36,508 nucleotides of DNA from NCBI GenBank assembly GCA_003252455.1, contig QKED01000014.1, positions 1 to 36,508 on the forward strand, given 5' to 3'. The position numbers and the translations under genes are program-made. A model generated the notes under the pieces. That model had not been told where the DNA came from. It saw nothing but the letters and a program-made list of their open reading frames with translations, and made no database searches. Shown here one piece after another: positions 5,216 through 11,284 of the stretch. This DNA is from Gammaproteobacteria bacterium (GTDB taxonomy: Bacteria; Pseudomonadota; Gammaproteobacteria; Thiohalomonadales; Thiohalomonadaceae). The stretch's first letter is position 1; the number at the start of each line of letters is the position of its first letter.

Positions 5216-5350
5216 GCCACAGAGGCACGGAGGAGACGCAGAGGCGGTATTCCGGCGCGGGTGTATATTGAAGTGCACCGCTCCACCTATTCGGGCAGCC
5301 ACTCCCATGCACCCATAACGATTTTTCCGTCTCCTCTGTGTCTGCGTGGC
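5216..5350. repeat. MITE/REP-like element with 22-bp imperfect terminal inverted repeats
   Basis: The left arm (5216-5237) and right arm (5329-5350) are inverted copies with the pattern GCCAC..AG.CAC.GAGGAGAC, differing at about four positions. They enclose about 91 bp with no ORF. The CCACAGAGGCAC / TCTGTGTCTGCGTGG character resembles a repeat family scattered through intergenic regions of many environmental bacteria (recollection, not searched). A 14-bp piece of the left side (AGGAGACGCAGAGG) recurs at 33232-33245. It is probably a non-autonomous, transposase-mobilised or REP-type element; no transposase is in the window. Confidence 0.6.
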
Positions 5351-5486
5351 TGATTTTCAGCCGTTCGGGCAAAGTATGCGCTGGCCCTATCGGACACCCC
5401 GGCGCCGGGGCCGTCGCCACGCGCACTCTGTTAGTATGTCGGCCTACAGCACGCGCCCTCCCCCCTACGAGCAGCCGACCGCCCCC

Positions 5487-6752
5487 ATGTCACAGACCAT
5501 CCCCCACATCGTGCTCACCGCCAAGCGCCTGGAGATCGACGAGCTGGCGCGTATCCAGACCCGCACGCACCTGTTTGGCGTGGTCGGAGAGATGATCCAT
5601 GTGCTGCAACTGGAGCGTGGCGCCTCCAGCCTCTACCTCGCCTCCAGCGGGGTACGCTTCGAGGGGGAGCTGACGCAGTTGGTGCGCGAGACCGAGCAGG
5701 TGGAGCAACGGCTGCGTCAGGTGCTCGACGAGGAGCTGGAGAACGCCGCCCACTCGAATGCCAAGATCATCTCACTCATCGGTTGGGTGGTACTCGGCCT
5801 CGACGCCCTCCCCGAGCTGCGCGAACGGGTGCGCCACCACCGTCTACAGGGGCACGCCTCGGTGGCGGCCTTCAGCCGCCTCATCGCTGGGTTGATCGCC
5901 CTCATCTTCGAGCTGGCGGACGCGGCGGTGGACCCGACCATCTCGCGCCTGTTGGTGGGGCTGTTCAATCTCATCGAGGGCAAGGAGCTGGCGGGCCAAG
6001 AGCGTGCGGTGGGCTCCCTCGCCTTTGGCGCCGGGCTCATCGAGGGCTCGGTGCAGCAGCGCAGCCTGCATCTGGTGGAGGCGCAGCGGCGTAGCCTGCT
6101 GGTGTTTCAGGAGTTCAGCGACGCGGCCATCGTCGCGCGCTGGCAGCGCTTCGAGGCCTCACCGACCATGAAGACGTTGGAGCAGTTGCGTCGGCGCCTG
6201 CACAACGCCCGCGCCGGCGGACGCATCGATGCCGAGTTGAGTCAGAGCTGGTTCGACTGCTGTAGCGCGCGTATCGGCGAGATGTGGTCGATCCAGCGCG
6301 AGCTGGTGGAGGCGATGCAGCGTCACTGCGCCGCGCAGATCGAGGCGGCCGAGCAGGCCCTGGAGGATGCACAGGGGCTGGTGCGCAAGCTGCGCGAGAA
6401 CCCACCGGCACGCGCCGAGGCGATCGACCACTTCTTCGACCCCGACCTGCCCATCGAGCAGTCGTTGGCGATGCGTAGCGAGGGTCAGGGGGCGATGGGA
6501 CCGGCAGGGGGGGTGATCGAGCTGCTCCAGGCACAGTCCCTACACCTGGCCAAGGTGGAGGACGAGCTGGCGGAGGCGAAGCGCGCGCTCAACGAGCGCA
6601 AGGTGATCGAACGGGCCAAGGGCATCCTCATGGCGCGCATGAACATCAGCGAGGCCGAGGCGCACAAACAGATGCGCAAGCTGGCGATGGACAAGAACCA
6701 GCGCCTGGTGGAGGTGGGGCAGACGGTGCTGAAGATAGTCGGTCATCCCTGA
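5487..6752 (+). CDS. nasR: NIT-ANTAR nitrate-responsive transcription antiterminator (NasR-like)
   Basis: This 421-residue protein combines an N-terminal helical nitrate/nitrite-sensing NIT domain (about 30-270) with a C-terminal ANTAR RNA-binding domain (about 361-417; VIERAKGILMARMNISEAEA). The two NIT arginine signatures are present: LERGASSLYLAS (R44) and AGQERAVGSLAFGAG (R173). They correspond to the residues that bind nitrate in Klebsiella NasR. Known: nitrate-bound NasR grips a two-hairpin leader and prevents termination. The ATG at 5487 gives the usual family length; an upstream in-frame ATG at 5436 is possible, and no strong ribosome-binding site decides between them. The gene converges on the cyanase gene with 23 bp between stop codons, and its likely target is the leader at 10010-10193. 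The symbol rests on domain architecture; orthology is not proven. Confidence 0.9.
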   Translation: MSQTIPHIVLTAKRLEIDELARIQTRTHLFGVVGEMIHVLQLERGASSLYLASSGVRFEGELTQLVRETEQVEQRLRQVLDEELENAAHSNAKIISLIGWVVLGLDALPELRERVRHHRLQGHASVAAFSRLIAGLIALIFELADAAVDPTISRLLVGLFNLIEGKELAGQERAVGSLAFGAGLIEGSVQQRSLHLVEAQRRSLLVFQEFSDAAIVARWQRFEASPTMKTLEQLRRRLHNARAGGRIDAELSQSWFDCCSARIGEMWSIQRELVEAMQRHCAAQIEAAEQALEDAQGLVRKLRENPPARAEAIDHFFDPDLPIEQSLAMRSEGQGAMGPAGGVIELLQAQSLHLAKVEDELAEAKRALNERKVIERAKGILMARMNISEAEAHKQMRKLAMDKNQRLVEVGQTVLKIVGHP

Positions 6753-6775: not shown

Positions 6776-7216
6776 TTACCAACTCTTGTAGGGGAGGAAT
6801 TTACCGCTCATGGTCACCTTGACGCGGTCGCCGGCGGGGTTCTTCTCCTTGTCGATGTGCATGGAGAAGTCGATGGCGCTCATGATGCCGTCACCGAACT
6901 TCTCGTGGATCAGCTCCTTGATGGTCTCGCCGTAGACGCCGACGATCTCGTACCAGCGGTAGATCACCGGGTCGGTGGGCACGCTCTTCTCCCAGCTCTT
7001 GTGCGGAAAGGCCTGCAGGGCGAGGCTCACCTCGCCAGGGAGACCCAGCACGGCACACACCTTGTCGGCGTACTCGGGCTTGAGGCTGTTCATGCCCAGG
7101 CACGCAGAGGTGAGAAACACGGGGGCGAGGCCCACCTGCTCGGCCAGTGCCTCCCAGCCCATGCCGGTAGCGCTCTTGGCCACCATCACGGCCTCGGTCA
7201 TCTCGATCTTATTCAT
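6776..7216 (-). CDS. cynS: Cyanate hydratase (cyanase)
   Basis: This 146-residue cytoplasmic enzyme is expected to convert cyanate and bicarbonate to carbamate and CO2, with carbamate decaying to ammonia, so it detoxifies cyanate and supplies nitrogen. The family catalytic triad is visible: R87 and E90 in YRWYEIVGVYGE and S113 in IMSAIDF, offset by nine from E. coli R96/E99/S122. The N-terminal helical domain (TEAVMVAKSATGMGWEALAEQVG) and the C-terminal FLPYKSW also match. The ATG at 7216 is preceded by GGAGA at good spacing; the in-frame upstream extension is not conserved-looking. It is the last gene of the FNT-kinase-cyanase run, 85 bp after the kinase stop. No cynT carbonic anhydrase or cynR is adjacent, which is atypical. 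Confidence 0.96.
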   Translation of the reverse strand: MNKIEMTEAVMVAKSATGMGWEALAEQVGLAPVFLTSACLGMNSLKPEYADKVCAVLGLPGEVSLALQAFPHKSWEKSVPTDPVIYRWYEIVGVYGETIKELIHEKFGDGIMSAIDFSMHIDKEKNPAGDRVKVTMSGKFLPYKSW

Positions 7217-7301
7217 CGGCTTCTCCTCTCGGTCGGGGTTGTCATCGACCCGGCGCCAGCTCATGGCCAGCACCGGGGCGGCTTGCTTAGCGTAGGCGGC
7301 G

Positions 7302-9044
7302 CTAGCCGCCGGTAAAGTAGGGGTGGGTGCTCGCCAGCGCGATGAGCATGAGGAAGAGCAGTAGGGCGGTCATCTTCCACACCAGGATCGGGTGGCTCTC
7401 CAGCAGTGGTGGGCGCCCCTTGCGCATGAACTCGGCGTTGGGTGTGCGTAGGTCGTGGATGAACTCACTCAGCTCGTCTTGGCGCTTGTAGGGGTTGGGG
7501 TTGAGTGCCTTCTTCAGCGCCTCGTCGATCCAGGCGGGGATGGTGCGTTCGTCGTCCAGTACGCTTGCATAGACCAGGCGGTGTTGTGCGGCGCGGGTCG
7601 TCGCGCGGGCCACCTGGGTGCCGTAGGGGGTGCGCCCGGAGAGCATCTGGTAGGTGATTACGGCCAGTGAGAAGAGGTCGGAGCGCGCCGTGGCCGGCTC
7701 GCCGATGAAGTACTCCGGGGCAGAGTAGAGGGCAGTACCGAGGATCGGCGGCTGCTCGACCAGGTTAGTGGCCTCGGCGATGCCGGCCACGCGCACCGAG
7801 CCGAAGTCGATGATCTTCACCGTGCCGTGCTGGTCGAGCATGATGTTGTTGGGGCGCAGGTCCTGGTGCAGCATCTCCTGACGATGGAGCGCCTGCAGCC
7901 CCTTGGCCACCTGCTCGACGATGTTGCGCACCGTCTCCAGTGGCGGGTGCGGGTTGTCGGCCATCCACTGATTGAGACTCTTGCCCTCGATATATTCGCT
8001 GACGATGTAGAGGTAGTTGCGCTTGCGCGTCAGTGCACACGGCTTGAGCAGGTGCGCGCTCTCCACGCGCCGCGCCACCCACTCCTCCATGAGGAATCGC
8101 TCCAGGTAGGCCGCGTCGTGGCGCAGGTCCACCGAGGGCAGTTTGAGCACCACCGAGTGACCGCTCTCCTCGTCGCGCGCCAGGTAGACGTGGCTACGGC
8201 TACTGCGCTGCAGCTCGCGCAGGATCTCGAAGCCGTCGAAGCGCATGCGCGGGCTCAGTTCGGGGGGAAACGGCAGGCTGTCGAGCTGTGACTGCAGCTC
8301 ACCCAACTGGTGGTTGGGCAGGCCGTCCACGCGCACGATCTGGATCGTCAGGTTGTCGCCACTGCCCTGTGCGTAGGCCTCCTCGACGACCGCCTGGGCG
8401 ACACCGTCGAGGTCGTAGCGCTGACGGTTGAGACACTCGATGATGAAGCGCGGCTCGACGAACTCGTAGACCCCGTCGGTGGCGAGGATATAGGTGTCAC
8501 CCTGCTCCAGAGGCAGGGCCCGATACTCCACCTCGACCCGGTCGCGCATACCCAGGGCGCGCGCCAGATAGCTCTTTTCGCGCGAGACCCACAGACGATG
8601 GTCCTCGGTGAGCTGTTCGAGGCTGTCGCCGACGACGCGGTAGACGCGCGCATCGCCGGCGTGAAAGATGTGCGCCGTGGTGGATTTGAGCACCAGGGCG
8701 GTGAAGGTGCAGACGTAGCCCTTATCCATGTCGTAGCGGTAGGGGCCATTGCGCGTCTGCGCGTAGAGCCAGGAGTTGGTCGCTTCGAGCACCTTGATCG
8801 CGGCACTCTTTACCGACCACGCCTCGGAGGTGGAGTAGTAGTCCTCCAGGAAGCCGGTCACCGAGGTCTGGCTCGCCTCCTGGCTGACTTGGCTGCTGCT
8901 GATCCCGTCCGCCAGCGCCACCACCACGCCCTTGGCGCTGAGGAGCGGCTCTTCAGGCACCATCACCGCGTGAAAGTCCTGATTGACGGCCTTTCGTCCC
9001 TTGTCGGAGTACTGGCCGATGGCGAGGTTGAGCTGGGCGGACAT
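7302..9044 (-). CDS. Bifunctional PP2C phosphatase - Ser/Thr protein kinase, C-terminal membrane anchor
   Basis: This is a 580-residue fusion. Residues about 5-240 are a PP2C phosphatase with its metal-binding set: D23 (NQD), D46 (LADG), D131 (HAGDARVY), D190 (ATDG) and D230-N231 (GDN). Residues about 268-530 are a Hanks-type kinase: K301 (VVLKLPS), HQDLRPNN with D395, D413-FG and APE at 442-444. The nucleotide loop (ELQRSSRSHVYLA) lacks the usual glycines. A hydrophobic segment (about 553-572) followed by a short tail should anchor it in the inner membrane. Known: a kinase of this architecture sits beside nitrite/nitrate assimilation genes in Pseudomonas (PA1782 region), which fits the FNT channel upstream. 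The ATG at 9044 has GGAGA upstream. Substrates are unknown; it may set phosphorylation of the transporter or another assimilation protein (inference). Confidence 0.93.
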   Translation of the reverse strand: MSAQLNLAIGQYSDKGRKAVNQDFHAVMVPEEPLLSAKGVVVALADGISSSQVSQEASQTSVTGFLEDYYSTSEAWSVKSAAIKVLEATNSWLYAQTRNGPYRYDMDKGYVCTFTALVLKSTTAHIFHAGDARVYRVVGDSLEQLTEDHRLWVSREKSYLARALGMRDRVEVEYRALPLEQGDTYILATDGVYEFVEPRFIIECLNRQRYDLDGVAQAVVEEAYAQGSGDNLTIQIVRVDGLPNHQLGELQSQLDSLPFPPELSPRMRFDGFEILRELQRSSRSHVYLARDEESGHSVVLKLPSVDLRHDAAYLERFLMEEWVARRVESAHLLKPCALTRKRNYLYIVSEYIEGKSLNQWMADNPHPPLETVRNIVEQVAKGLQALHRQEMLHQDLRPNNIMLDQHGTVKIIDFGSVRVAGIAEATNLVEQPPILGTALYSAPEYFIGEPATARSDLFSLAVITYQMLSGRTPYGTQVARATTRAAQHRLVYASVLDDERTIPAWIDEALKKALNPNPYKRQDELSEFIHDLRTPNAEFMRKGRPPLLESHPILVWKMTALLLFLMLIALASTHPYFTGG

Positions 9045-9100: not shown

Positions 9101-9922
9101 TCAGTGCTTGCCCTTGAGGATGCGCTCGGGGCTGGTGCGCACATGGGTGTAGTAGAGCGGCAGACCGACCAACACGAAGCCGCCGATCAGGTTACCCAGC
9201 GCGGTGGGCAGCTCGTTCCAGATGATGTACTCCATGAAGGTGAAACCGCCCCCCATGATCATGGAGAAGGGGAAGAGGAACATGTTGACGATGGAGTGCT
9301 CGAAGCCCATGAAGAAGAAGAGCATGATCGGCATCCACATAGCGGCCATCTTGCCGGTGGCGCTGGTGGAGATCATCGCGCCGACCACACCCATGGAGAC
9401 CATCCAGTTGCACAGCATGCCGCGGATGAGGATGGTCAGCCAGCCGTCCACGCCGTGGGCGGCGTAGCCGAGGGTACGCGACTCACCGATCTTGGCCACC
9501 TTGGCCGCAATGGCGCCACCATCGGTGTTGTAACCATAGGTGAGGATGAAGGACATCATGAAGGCGACGGTCAGCGCACCGGCGAAGTTGCCGACGAATA
9601 CCAGGCCCCAGTTACGCAGCACCTGACCGACGGTGACGCCGGGACGCTTATCGAGCAGGGCCAGGGGCACCAAGGTGAAGACGCCGGTGAGCAGGTCGAA
9701 CTTCATCAGATAGAGCATGATGAAGCCGACCGGGAAGAGCACCGCACCGAGCAGCGGTGATCCGGTGTTGGTGGCCACGGTGATGGCGAAGACAGCGGCC
9801 AGGGCGAGGATGGCACCGGCCATGAAGGCGCGGATCAGGGTGTCCTTGGCGGACATGTAGACCTTGGACTCGCCCTGGTCGACCATCTTGGTTACAAACT
9901 CGCTCGGATCTAAGTAGGACAT
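9101..9922 (-). CDS. Formate/nitrite transporter (FNT) family channel, NirC-like
   Basis: This 273-residue inner-membrane protein has six hydrophobic spans and the FNT pore features: the loop KFDLLTGVFTL near 74-84, the CNWMVSMGVV motif near 171-180, and the central histidine H209 in FFFMGFEHSIVNMF, equal in number to FocA H209. Known: FNT pentamers pass monovalent anions such as nitrite, formate or hydrosulfide. Context (nitrate sensor, nitrogen genes) favours nitrite, so NirC-like, but the substrate cannot be fixed from sequence. The ATG at 9922 sits eight bases after GAGG; an in-frame ATG at 9928 lies closer to that site and is less likely. It is the first gene after the leader terminator and 56 bp upstream of the kinase start. 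Confidence 0.93.
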   Translation of the reverse strand: MSYLDPSEFVTKMVDQGESKVYMSAKDTLIRAFMAGAILALAAVFAITVATNTGSPLLGAVLFPVGFIMLYLMKFDLLTGVFTLVPLALLDKRPGVTVGQVLRNWGLVFVGNFAGALTVAFMMSFILTYGYNTDGGAIAAKVAKIGESRTLGYAAHGVDGWLTILIRGMLCNWMVSMGVVGAMISTSATGKMAAMWMPIMLFFFMGFEHSIVNMFLFPFSMIMGGGFTFMEYIIWNELPTALGNLIGGFVLVGLPLYYTHVRTSPERILKGKH

Positions 9923-10009
9923 CGTCATTACCTCGGGTTGCTACTATCGGTATGGGTTGAAGCGCTCGGCCCGCCGCCACCACGACACCAACACCACAGA
10001 AGCGGAACC

Positions 10010-10061
10010 AAAAAAAAAGCCCTAAGCGCCGGACCGCTGGATACGGTCAGGTGCTTAGGGC
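10010..10061 (-). terminator. Leader intrinsic terminator upstream of the FNT operon
   Basis: On the minus-strand RNA, GCCCUAAGC (10053-10061) pairs with GCUUAGGGC (10019-10027). The stem continues through CC/GG and GACCG/CGGUC with single mismatches to a UAUCCAG loop, and nine U residues follow (10010-10018). It ends about 90 bases before the FNT start codon, so it cannot end an upstream gene and must act on the leader of the FNT transcript. This is the arrangement expected for antitermination control. Confidence 0.88.
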
Positions 10062-10071
10062 TTCTTCACCC

Positions 10072-10095
10072 TCGACCTCGGCAGGGCCGGGTCGA
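10072..10095 (-). ncRNA. Leader hairpin immediately upstream of the terminator
   Basis: On the minus-strand RNA, UCGACC-CGGC pairs with GCCG-GGUCGA around a CCU loop, with one bulged A (10 base pairs). It lies 10 bases before the terminator and does not overlap its stem, so it is more likely a spacer or folding element than a classical antiterminator. Confidence 0.5.
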
Positions 10096-10142
10096 ACATG
10101 GGGGTCGGGTTGCCGCGAACGGCGCTGAGTGTCAGATGGCGG

Positions 10143-10193
10143 GCACGGCGCCATTACCGTGCGGCCTCTTGCTGGTATCGACACAGCAAAGGC
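10143..10193 (-). promoter_or_regulatory. Candidate ANTAR-binding two-hairpin element
   Basis: On the minus-strand RNA two hairpins lie back to back. The downstream one (10143-10162) has stem GCACGG/CCGUGC, closed by a U-G pair, leaving hexaloop AAUGGC; A at position 1 and G at position 4 are the ANTAR-recognised bases. The upstream one (10164-10193) has stem GCCU-UUGCUG/CAGCAA-AGGC with one bulged G; its loop (UGUCGAUAC) is nine bases unless an inner pair forms, so it is not a clean AnnGnn loop. Known: ANTAR proteins bind such paired hairpins in leader RNA. The NIT-ANTAR gene at 5487-6752 is the obvious partner. Confidence 0.6.
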
Positions 10194-10831: not shown

Positions 10832-11284
10832 ATGAGTAACAATAGTAATAACGTCGCGTCCAGCAGCAGTGCGGACGGCTTCAGCAGCTTCACCCCCTAC
10901 GAGCCCGTCTCGGGTGAGGAGTACATGAGCCGTCCTATGCGCGAGCACTTTCGTGGCCTGCTGCTCGCTTGGCGCAAGGAGCTGATGGAAGAGGTGGACC
11001 GCACCGTGCACCATATGCAGGACGAGGCGGCCAACTTCCCCGACCCCAACGACCGTGCGACTCAGGAGTCTGAGTTCACCATGGAGCTGCGTACCCGTGA
11101 CCGCGAGCGCAAGCTGATCAAGAAGATCAACGAGGCACTCGACCTACTCGACGACCAGGAGTACGGCTACTGCGAAAGCTGTGGCGTGGAGATCGGCATC
11201 CGCCGCCTCGAAGCCCGCCCCACCGCCACCCTCTGCATCGACTGCAAGACCCTCGACGAGATCCGCGAAAAGCAGCGCGGCTGA
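10832..11284 (+). CDS. dksA: RNA polymerase-binding transcription factor DksA
   Basis: This 150-residue protein matches DksA in length and layout. It has a coiled coil with the tip sequence DPNDRATQE (D71, D74), which reaches the polymerase active site through the secondary channel, and a zinc finger with C114, C117, C135 and C138 (CESCG...CIDC). Known role: with ppGpp it lowers rRNA transcription and raises amino-acid biosynthesis promoters. The first 20 residues are a serine/asparagine-rich variable tail. The ATG at 10832 is preceded by a weak AAATAAGG. The gene stands alone, with a G+C-rich hairpin after it. Confidence 0.97.
   Translation: MSNNSNNVASSSSADGFSSFTPYEPVSGEEYMSRPMREHFRGLLLAWRKELMEEVDRTVHHMQDEAANFPDPNDRATQESEFTMELRTRDRERKLIKKINEALDLLDDQEYGYCESCGVEIGIRRLEARPTATLCIDCKTLDEIREKQRG

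Follow-up and report, generated by a model that had tools for sequence, protein, structure and literature searches.

What governs transcription of an operon that joins an FNT channel, a phosphatase-kinase fusion and a cyanase? We addressed this question in the window, that is, the whole analyzed stretch of 36,508 nt (contig QKED01000014.1 of assembly GCA_003252455.1, Thiohalomonadaceae; coordinates are in forward-strand numbering, and L numbers denote compared loci). An earlier note on the same DNA had proposed an ANTAR-type antitermination leader with a NIT-ANTAR protein as its likely effector, and comparative anatomy, covariation, co-occurrence and synteny support this proposal. The relevant features are as follows.

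5346-6752, plus strand: NIT-ANTAR regulator gene, with an ATG start at 5484 (PF08376, 160.7 bits; PF03861, 68.9 bits)
6776-7273, minus strand: cyanase gene (cynS), probable start 7216 (TIGR00673 and NF002773 over cut-off)
7302-9044, minus strand: PP2C phosphatase-protein kinase fusion (profile matches)
9101-9928, minus strand: FNT channel gene (PF01226), probable start ATG 9922, as used by orthologues
10061-10010, minus strand: intrinsic terminator GCCCUAAGC..GCUUAGGGC, U9 at 10018-10010 (folding and shuffles)
10071-10058, minus strand: hairpin P2, GGGU-GAAGAA-GCCC, 4-5 bp, loop 10067-10062 (aligned with the L008, L030 and L006 leaders and the nirB leader of the same genome)
10095-10072, minus strand: hairpin LH2, ending directly before P2 (0/400 shuffles as stable)
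10123-10112, minus strand: hairpin LH1, GCCG-UUCG-CGGC (leader fold from the predicted start)
10162-10143, minus strand: hairpin P1, GCACGGU-AAUGGC-GCCGUGC, 7 bp (fold, shuffles and covariation)
10201-10185, minus strand: sigma54-type promoter TTGGCCCAGCCTTTGCT, with the -24 GG at 10199-10198 and the -12 GC at 10187-10186

Read 5' to 3' on the minus strand, the leader thus consists of promoter, P1, LH1, LH2, P2 and terminator, and dksA (10832-11284, plus) is divergent from it and the genes it precedes. The regulator gene, which the earlier note had placed at the other end of the same gene run, does encode NIT and ANTAR domains, but it is encoded on the plus strand, converging on cynS, and is not part of the operon transcript. 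The PP2C-kinase gene follows FNT within 1.3 kb in 75/80 orthologous loci (L003-L082). For the cyanase start, the NF002773 model begins at residue 20; among solved structures, LCIA (9v2a) ranks as the closest relative of the window FNT, before FocA and NirC. The channel substrate may be nitrite, cyanate or bicarbonate, and the operon as a whole would serve the import and use of small nitrogen anions.

The strong minus-strand terminator claimed about 90 bases before FNT, with nine U residues, is borne out by folding: the stretch 10072-10010 reaches -37.7 kcal/mol (z -6.2; 0/200 shuffles as stable), and the U-run ends 87 nt upstream of ATG 9922. Likewise present is the claimed hairpin with hexaloop AAUGGC (A1, G4), here P1; no other A1/G4 hexaloop between 10300 and 10010 on the minus strand sits on an unbroken stem of 3 bp or longer. 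Among 5000 dinucleotide shuffles of the 165-nt leader, 41 contained a hairpin of 7 bp with an A..G.. hexaloop, and 3 contained one with the loop AA[ACT]G[GA].; the folding energy of P1 by itself is unexceptional (z -1.8, 9/200 shuffles as good). The nine-base-loop hairpin that the earlier note took as the second can be drawn at 10193-10166 and is near chance (z -1.9, 11/200 shuffles as good). The -12 GC of the promoter falls within its 5' arm, an arm probably absent from the RNA, since the start is expected downstream of it near 10174, and we rejected this hairpin as the second ANTAR hairpin. Judged from the sequence, the true second hairpin is P2 in the 5' arm of the terminator, as the ANTAR model requires, which had been overlooked.

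P2 and the terminator 5' arm have GCCC (10061-10058) in common, an overlap also found in the L008, L030, L006 and own nirB leaders, and in folds the terminator displaces P2 once its 3' arm is included. The window P2 (GGGU-GAAGAA-GCCCUAAG) occupies the same place as those of Reinekea L008 (GGGU-AAUGGA-GCCCUAAG) and Competibacter L030 (GGGU-AACGAA-GCCCCAAG), both of which also lie inside the terminator 5' arm. In agreement with the published description of the element (PMC3369931, available text), both window hairpins are hexaloops on stems of at least 3 bp, and both loops carry G4; in departure from its A1 in each loop, position 1 is A in P1 and G in P2. The window P2 is the sole one without A1 among 17 collected P2 hairpins, most of which were collected by demanding A1, and when 87 leaders were scanned explicitly for non-A1 loops, with A2, G4, a 4-bp stem and a terminator required, no second case appeared. 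According to the available parts of two studies, A1 of P2 is needed for full EutV induction, which an A1-to-U change in P2 lowered (PMC3369931), and G4 stacks on Tyr164, while A1 has no specific protein contact and may serve to prevent cross-loop pairing (PMC8934654). Function of the GAAGAA loop is thus plausible, because no cross-loop Watson-Crick pair is possible in it. The G at position 1 is also the reason why an A1-based scan missed the window, and any scan built on A1/G4 in both loops plus a short linker would overlook this element. The earlier note had suggested the Rfam ANTAR model as a check; a copy of Rfam release 15 gave no match at the gathering score in the window (best sub-threshold match in the leader: RF03032 narK RNA, 18.7 of 43.2 bits, E 0.42), which neither supports nor weakens the reading.

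Scored against the sigma54 promoter consensus, the window promoter (TGGCCC-N5-TTGC) has 9/11 letters, a score equaled in 9/500 base shuffles. A sigma54 start lies about 12 nt past the -12 GC, and the window transcript is accordingly expected to begin near 10174. Sites of 9-11 letters occur 11-49 nt upstream of P1 in 13/13 element leaders scored, although these scores carry selection because the scan imposed GG and GC; the window, L030 and L006 all have 23 nt between promoter and P1. A site of 9 or more letters was also found in 38 of 71 leaders treated as element-free, a set that includes L077 and L080, which do carry P2 and a terminator. The L159 leader, outside the 13 scored and inspected by eye, has the -24 motif and lacks the -12 GC, which counts against the model. 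The window's genome encodes RpoN (rpoN). Upstream of the promoter lies TTTGGTGC (10328-10321, minus), presumably resembling an NtrC half-site, and GCACCAAA/TTTGGTGC-like words stand upstream in several orthologous leaders. Just upstream of the promoter, a second AAAUGGCC stretch is set in an imperfect hairpin (GAGUG..CACUC; 10242-10221, minus); this AAUGGC stretch was rejected as P1, being upstream of the promoter and forming no uninterrupted A1/G4 hexaloop hairpin. The available text of PMC12316311 describes sigma54-regulated cyanate lyase as enriched in alpha- and gamma-Proteobacteria and predicts 66 sigma54 promoters at ANTAR-family genes, for the most part from beta- and gamma-Proteobacteria, which fits the picture in the window.

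The P1-P2 linker of the window measures 71 nt, far from the 5-12 nt of eut leaders (PMC3369931), a 2012 study whose covariance search, in the available text, allowed a variable linker. Similar lengths recur in four further leaders: 58-62 nt before nirB in the same genome, 57-61 nt in L030, 70 nt before nirB in L006 and about 60 nt in L159, all of which vary with where the stems are cut; the linkers of other orthologous leaders are 6-40 nt. LH2 and P2 of the window fold as adjoining hairpins (10095-10057; z -3.95, 1/200 shuffles as good), and a hairpin ends 0-2 nt before P2 in 5/5 long-linker leaders, with 0, 6, 3, 2 and 0 of 400 dinucleotide shuffles as stable. The combined p value for the first four (4.7e-6) is optimistic because the definition of the test, one local hairpin, was set after the result of a first, looser test (any fold ending at P2), which did not discriminate (178, 358, 78 and 236 of 1000 shuffles as good). 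As a whole, the linkers of four leaders were equaled in stability by 76, 451, 49 and 13 of 1000 shuffles. The P2-adjoining hairpin has the same stem in L030 and L159, and none was found in the medium linkers of L008, L032 and L081. In the published EutV system, as far as the available texts describe it, linkers of 3 or 14 nt cut induction drastically (PMC3369931), a 20-nt extension abolished antitermination in vitro, and P1-P2 spacing is treated as a strict constraint and used to argue for successive binding (PMC8934654). Folding of the linker, with LH2 against P2, may bring P1 and P2 back into close range.

The element recurs in related leaders. In the window's own genome, a paralogous leader, that of nirB (contig C6, L097 minus), has a sigma54 site, a P1 with loop AAAGGU, a long linker, P2 GGGU-AACGAA-GCCC and a U9 terminator, and the three long-linker leaders outside this genome (L030, L006 and L159) precede FNT or nirB operons; in L006 the first gene behind the element is nirB, followed in the same run by nirD (by eye), FNT and kinase. 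Of the 80 orthologous loci, 12 have a terminator upstream of FNT that contains an A1/G4 hexaloop hairpin (L008, L024, L027, L029, L030, L031, L032, L033, L068, L077, L080 and L081). From the 15 orthologous rows of a loose scan, L012, L061 and L078 were rejected, having ATTG loops, weaker terminators and no P1. A P1 candidate is present in 10 of the 12 element loci, with the loop AGCGUG in L068; a P1 match in L077 was not counted, as it overlaps the L077 promoter. The P1 alignment was made without L068 and L081, where candidates are present, and without L077 and L080, where none is convincing.

Both stems covary, to an extent that the figures overstate because rows were chosen for having stems. 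The P2 alignment (15 rows, 11 distinct) has 100% of cells paired and 11 cells changed on both sides (0.87 vs 0.42 shuffled), and that of P1 (11 rows, 10 distinct) has 94.7% paired and 17 cells changed on both sides (0.89 vs 0.30 shuffled); for P1 of six clade A-type leaders (clades as defined below) the values are 90.2%, nine cells and 0.62 vs 0.30. A2 occurs in all aligned P1 and P2 loops, a recurrence free of row-selection bias because A2 was not demanded. Covariation in two hairpins, which the earlier note had called for, is therefore found for P1, while the second covarying hairpin is P2 in the terminator arm and not the nine-base-loop one.

To search more widely we used R1, a covariance model of P2 plus terminator built from five leaders, including those of the window and own nirB. 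Over the whole of the window's genome R1 gave exactly two sense-strand matches, the window (70.9 bits) and nirB (71.5 bits) leaders, and the other two matches were antisense to these. Across 40 genomes of the order of L030 it found L030 and, blind, a new leader, L159 (46 bits), which has P1, a long linker, LH2 and P2, precedes an FNT-kinase pair and is accompanied by a convergent NIT-ANTAR gene whose product is 57% identical to that of the window; the 13-kb stretch there gave no cyanase match. Over 34 sequence sources it returned only training leaders, their second copies (L137 and L140) and antisense matches. A P2-terminator pattern search of 369 genomes of the class gave only the window's two own leaders, so that the long-linker subclass is rare. 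The search for FNT by rank covered one genome in the genus and 20 in the family, with five matches, the order comprising the same 20 genomes; by eye, no element was seen in the FNT leaders of four family relatives.

The candidate effector has a NIT domain followed by an ANTAR domain and matches NasR (4akk) with E 3.2e-37. It keeps ERGAS and GKELAGQERA, as in NasR, and the R and K of ERK..AK; it has R at the position of NasR K345 and H at that of W362 (numbering inferred from PMC7496416). The W362 position is H in the window and L008 and Y in the other nine aligned NIT-ANTAR proteins. NIT-ANTAR genes occur in 8/12 element genomes vs 3/54 tested element-free genomes (Fisher p 1.2e-5), and any ANTAR gene in 12/12 vs 25/54 (Fisher p 6.5e-4), p values that ignore kinship (L029, L031 and L033 are close kin) and come from a count that leaves out 12/80 loci and in which part of the NIT absence calls rest on open frames of 193-238 aa; L015 and L056 represent one genome. 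Two of the three NIT-ANTAR genomes without the element at FNT have a particular arrangement: in L006, FNT belongs to the nirB run and the element lies in the leader of that run, and in L005 a nirD-like gene immediately precedes FNT and the contig start truncates the nirB frame. In the third, L043, NIT-ANTAR is present with no element before FNT, which counts against the model. In a tree of NIT-ANTAR proteins (the L160 protein stands outside it), the window, L030, L008, L005 and L006 form clade A and the other seven clade B, each at 100/100. Leaders are present in four clade A genomes, with a GGGU..GCCC P2 and linkers of 30-71 nt, and in six clade B genomes, where P2 contains AAYGGC and the linkers measure 6-20 nt.

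The window's genome has one further ANTAR gene, encoding a response-regulator-ANTAR protein of NasT type on contig C87, which adjoins a cluster of nitrate-uptake and nitrate-reductase type. That this protein, and not NIT-ANTAR, acts on the window leader is improbable in our view, even though the gene is at hand and the genomes of L032, L077, L080 and L081 carry the element with only response-regulator-type or short ANTAR genes; because 4/12 element genomes are without NIT-ANTAR, the FNT leader is not always paired with it. The nrtA leader, which follows nasT, is of a different, canonical type: both its loops read AAAGGC and its linker does not exceed 6 nt. No ANTAR gene other than NIT-ANTAR was found in the genomes of six loci with the FNT element (L008, L024, L027, L029, L031 and L033). 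Moreover, NIT-ANTAR is convergent with the FNT operon in L030 and L160 as in the window, and long-linker leaders go with NIT-ANTAR clade A, again pointing to NIT-ANTAR. In the same region, the nasT leader (L096:13311-13296, minus) has a sigma54-like site and a GUGC-AAUGGC-GCAC hexaloop hairpin with no T-run seen, perhaps a case of autoregulation that does not involve a terminator, and a protein with a PilJ-type sensor domain (PF13675; L096:6979-7902, minus) is encoded between the NasS-like and nitrate reductase genes.

Slightly less probable still is that NIT-ANTAR senses cyanate or another small anion in place of nitrate or nitrite and turns on the use of cyanate. The last gene of the operon is cyanase, 33/80 orthologous loci have a cyanase gene no more than 2.7 kb from FNT (in several orders and orientations), and clade A is separate from clade B; against this, NasR itself shares ERGAS and GKELAGQERA, the gene behind the paralogous leader is nirB, which encodes a nitrite reductase, and L160 has the same leader and regulator with no cyanase match in a 13-kb stretch. 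Least probable is a decaying element whose P2 with G1 no longer binds, leaving the terminator as a constitutive attenuator: the window P2 is alone among the 17 collected in lacking A1 and the A1-to-U change in P2 reduced EutV induction (PMC3369931, available text), but P2 retains its stem and G4, and P1, LH2, the promoter and the terminator are retained as well, A1 has no specific protein contact in what is available of PMC8934654, and the NIT-ANTAR reading frame is uninterrupted.

Collectively, the leader most probably encodes a default terminator on a sigma54 transcript that the NIT-ANTAR protein lifts in response to nitrate or nitrite. The promoter match, P1, P2, terminator, conservation, covariation and co-occurrence are read directly from the sequence. 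Under this model the FNT-kinase-cyanase operon would be transcribed from the sigma54 promoter, with NtrC as the presumed activator when nitrogen is limiting, and by default the leader would fold into P1, LH1, LH2 and the terminator, ending transcription before FNT. Nitrate or nitrite would bind the NIT domain of the convergently encoded protein and free its ANTAR domains, which would then grip the hexaloops of P1 and P2. With P2 held, the terminator could not form because P2 contains the GCCC segment that the terminator needs, and the operon would be transcribed; nirB would be under the same control through the paralogous leader. The nitrate/nitrite signal, the NtrC activator, the binding of the protein and the role of LH2 are the parts that we infer. 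A P2 without A1 and a 71-nt linker count against the model, because EutV needs A1 for full induction and tolerates only short linkers in the available descriptions (PMC3369931, PMC8934654). The earlier suspicion that the element deviates from the two-hexaloop rule was hence right in kind, the deviation being the G1 of P2 and the long linker with its hairpins, and wrong as to the nine-base loop.

We further propose, tentatively and with slightly less than even confidence, a subclass of ANTAR antiterminators with a folded spacer of about 60-70 nt and a hairpin abutting P2, in which one NIT-ANTAR clade would act across a distance that abolishes the function of known elements, would tolerate G1 in P2, and would tie cyanase, FNT and the kinase-phosphatase to nitrate/nitrite sensing. 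Such natural folded linkers offer a direct test: either distance is counted in space and not in nucleotides, or the EutV model needs change.

Two Rfam families resemble the window leader, in that the consensus of both RF00625 (P11) and RF03032 (narK RNA) begins with a sigma54-like promoter and contains A1/G4-type hexaloop hairpins; P11 additionally has a hairpin between two hexaloop hairpins, as in the window. Its consensus reads sigma54 promoter, hexaloop P1, linker hairpin, P2 GGAC-AAAGGC-GUCC and terminator, and the window leader gave no match to it up to E 10. Rfam files P11 as an sRNA gene; the 'Pseudomonas sRNA P11' may be a nitrate antitermination leader, and P. aeruginosa P11 is described in the available text of PMC12080996 as regulating the nirB-nirD-nasC operon. 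Sub-threshold RF00625 matches (L107:1833-1965, plus, 37.0 bits; L115:1811-1950, plus, 34.1 bits; L128:5262-5377, minus, 30.1 bits; of 70 bits) coincide with ANTAR-type leaders, and two of these directly follow a NasT-like gene. The narK RNA aligns weakly at 10199-10145 (minus), with its 5' end on the window sigma54 promoter; at its 3' end stands CGAC-AAAGAC-GUCG, a hairpin with an A1/G4 hexaloop, and narK RNA too may be a promoter plus an ANTAR element.

Among characterized systems, NasT-type leaders (nrtA of the same genome and Paracoccus nasA, whose leader RNA is bound by NasT in the available text of PMC3795266) are likewise ANTAR target leaders before nitrate genes; the nrtA leader differs from the window in its short linker, its paired AAAGGC loops and its response-regulator-type regulator. 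The eut leaders of Enterococcus faecalis share dual hexaloops and a P2 in the terminator 5' arm, and differ in their 5-12 nt linkers, A1 in both loops and a response regulator, EutV, as effector (PMC3369931, PMC8934654, available texts). Open-licence articles in PubMed Central yielded no report of ANTAR control of an FNT-kinase-cyanase operon or of long folded ANTAR linkers. The closest counterpart is NasR-nasF of Klebsiella oxytoca, which likewise combines a NIT-ANTAR protein, P1 and P2 hexaloops, a P2 exclusive with the terminator and nitrogen genes, and in which nasF has a sigma54/NtrC start. Compared with it, the window differs in its FNT-kinase-cyanase operon, its 71-nt linker with hairpins, the G1 of P2 and a regulator gene convergent with the operon. 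Taken together, the window leader in all likelihood works like NasR-nasF, yet it is a variant and not a plain member of the published element, because it departs both from A1 in P2 and from the short linker, and it would extend nitrate-type antitermination to an FNT-kinase-cyanase operon.
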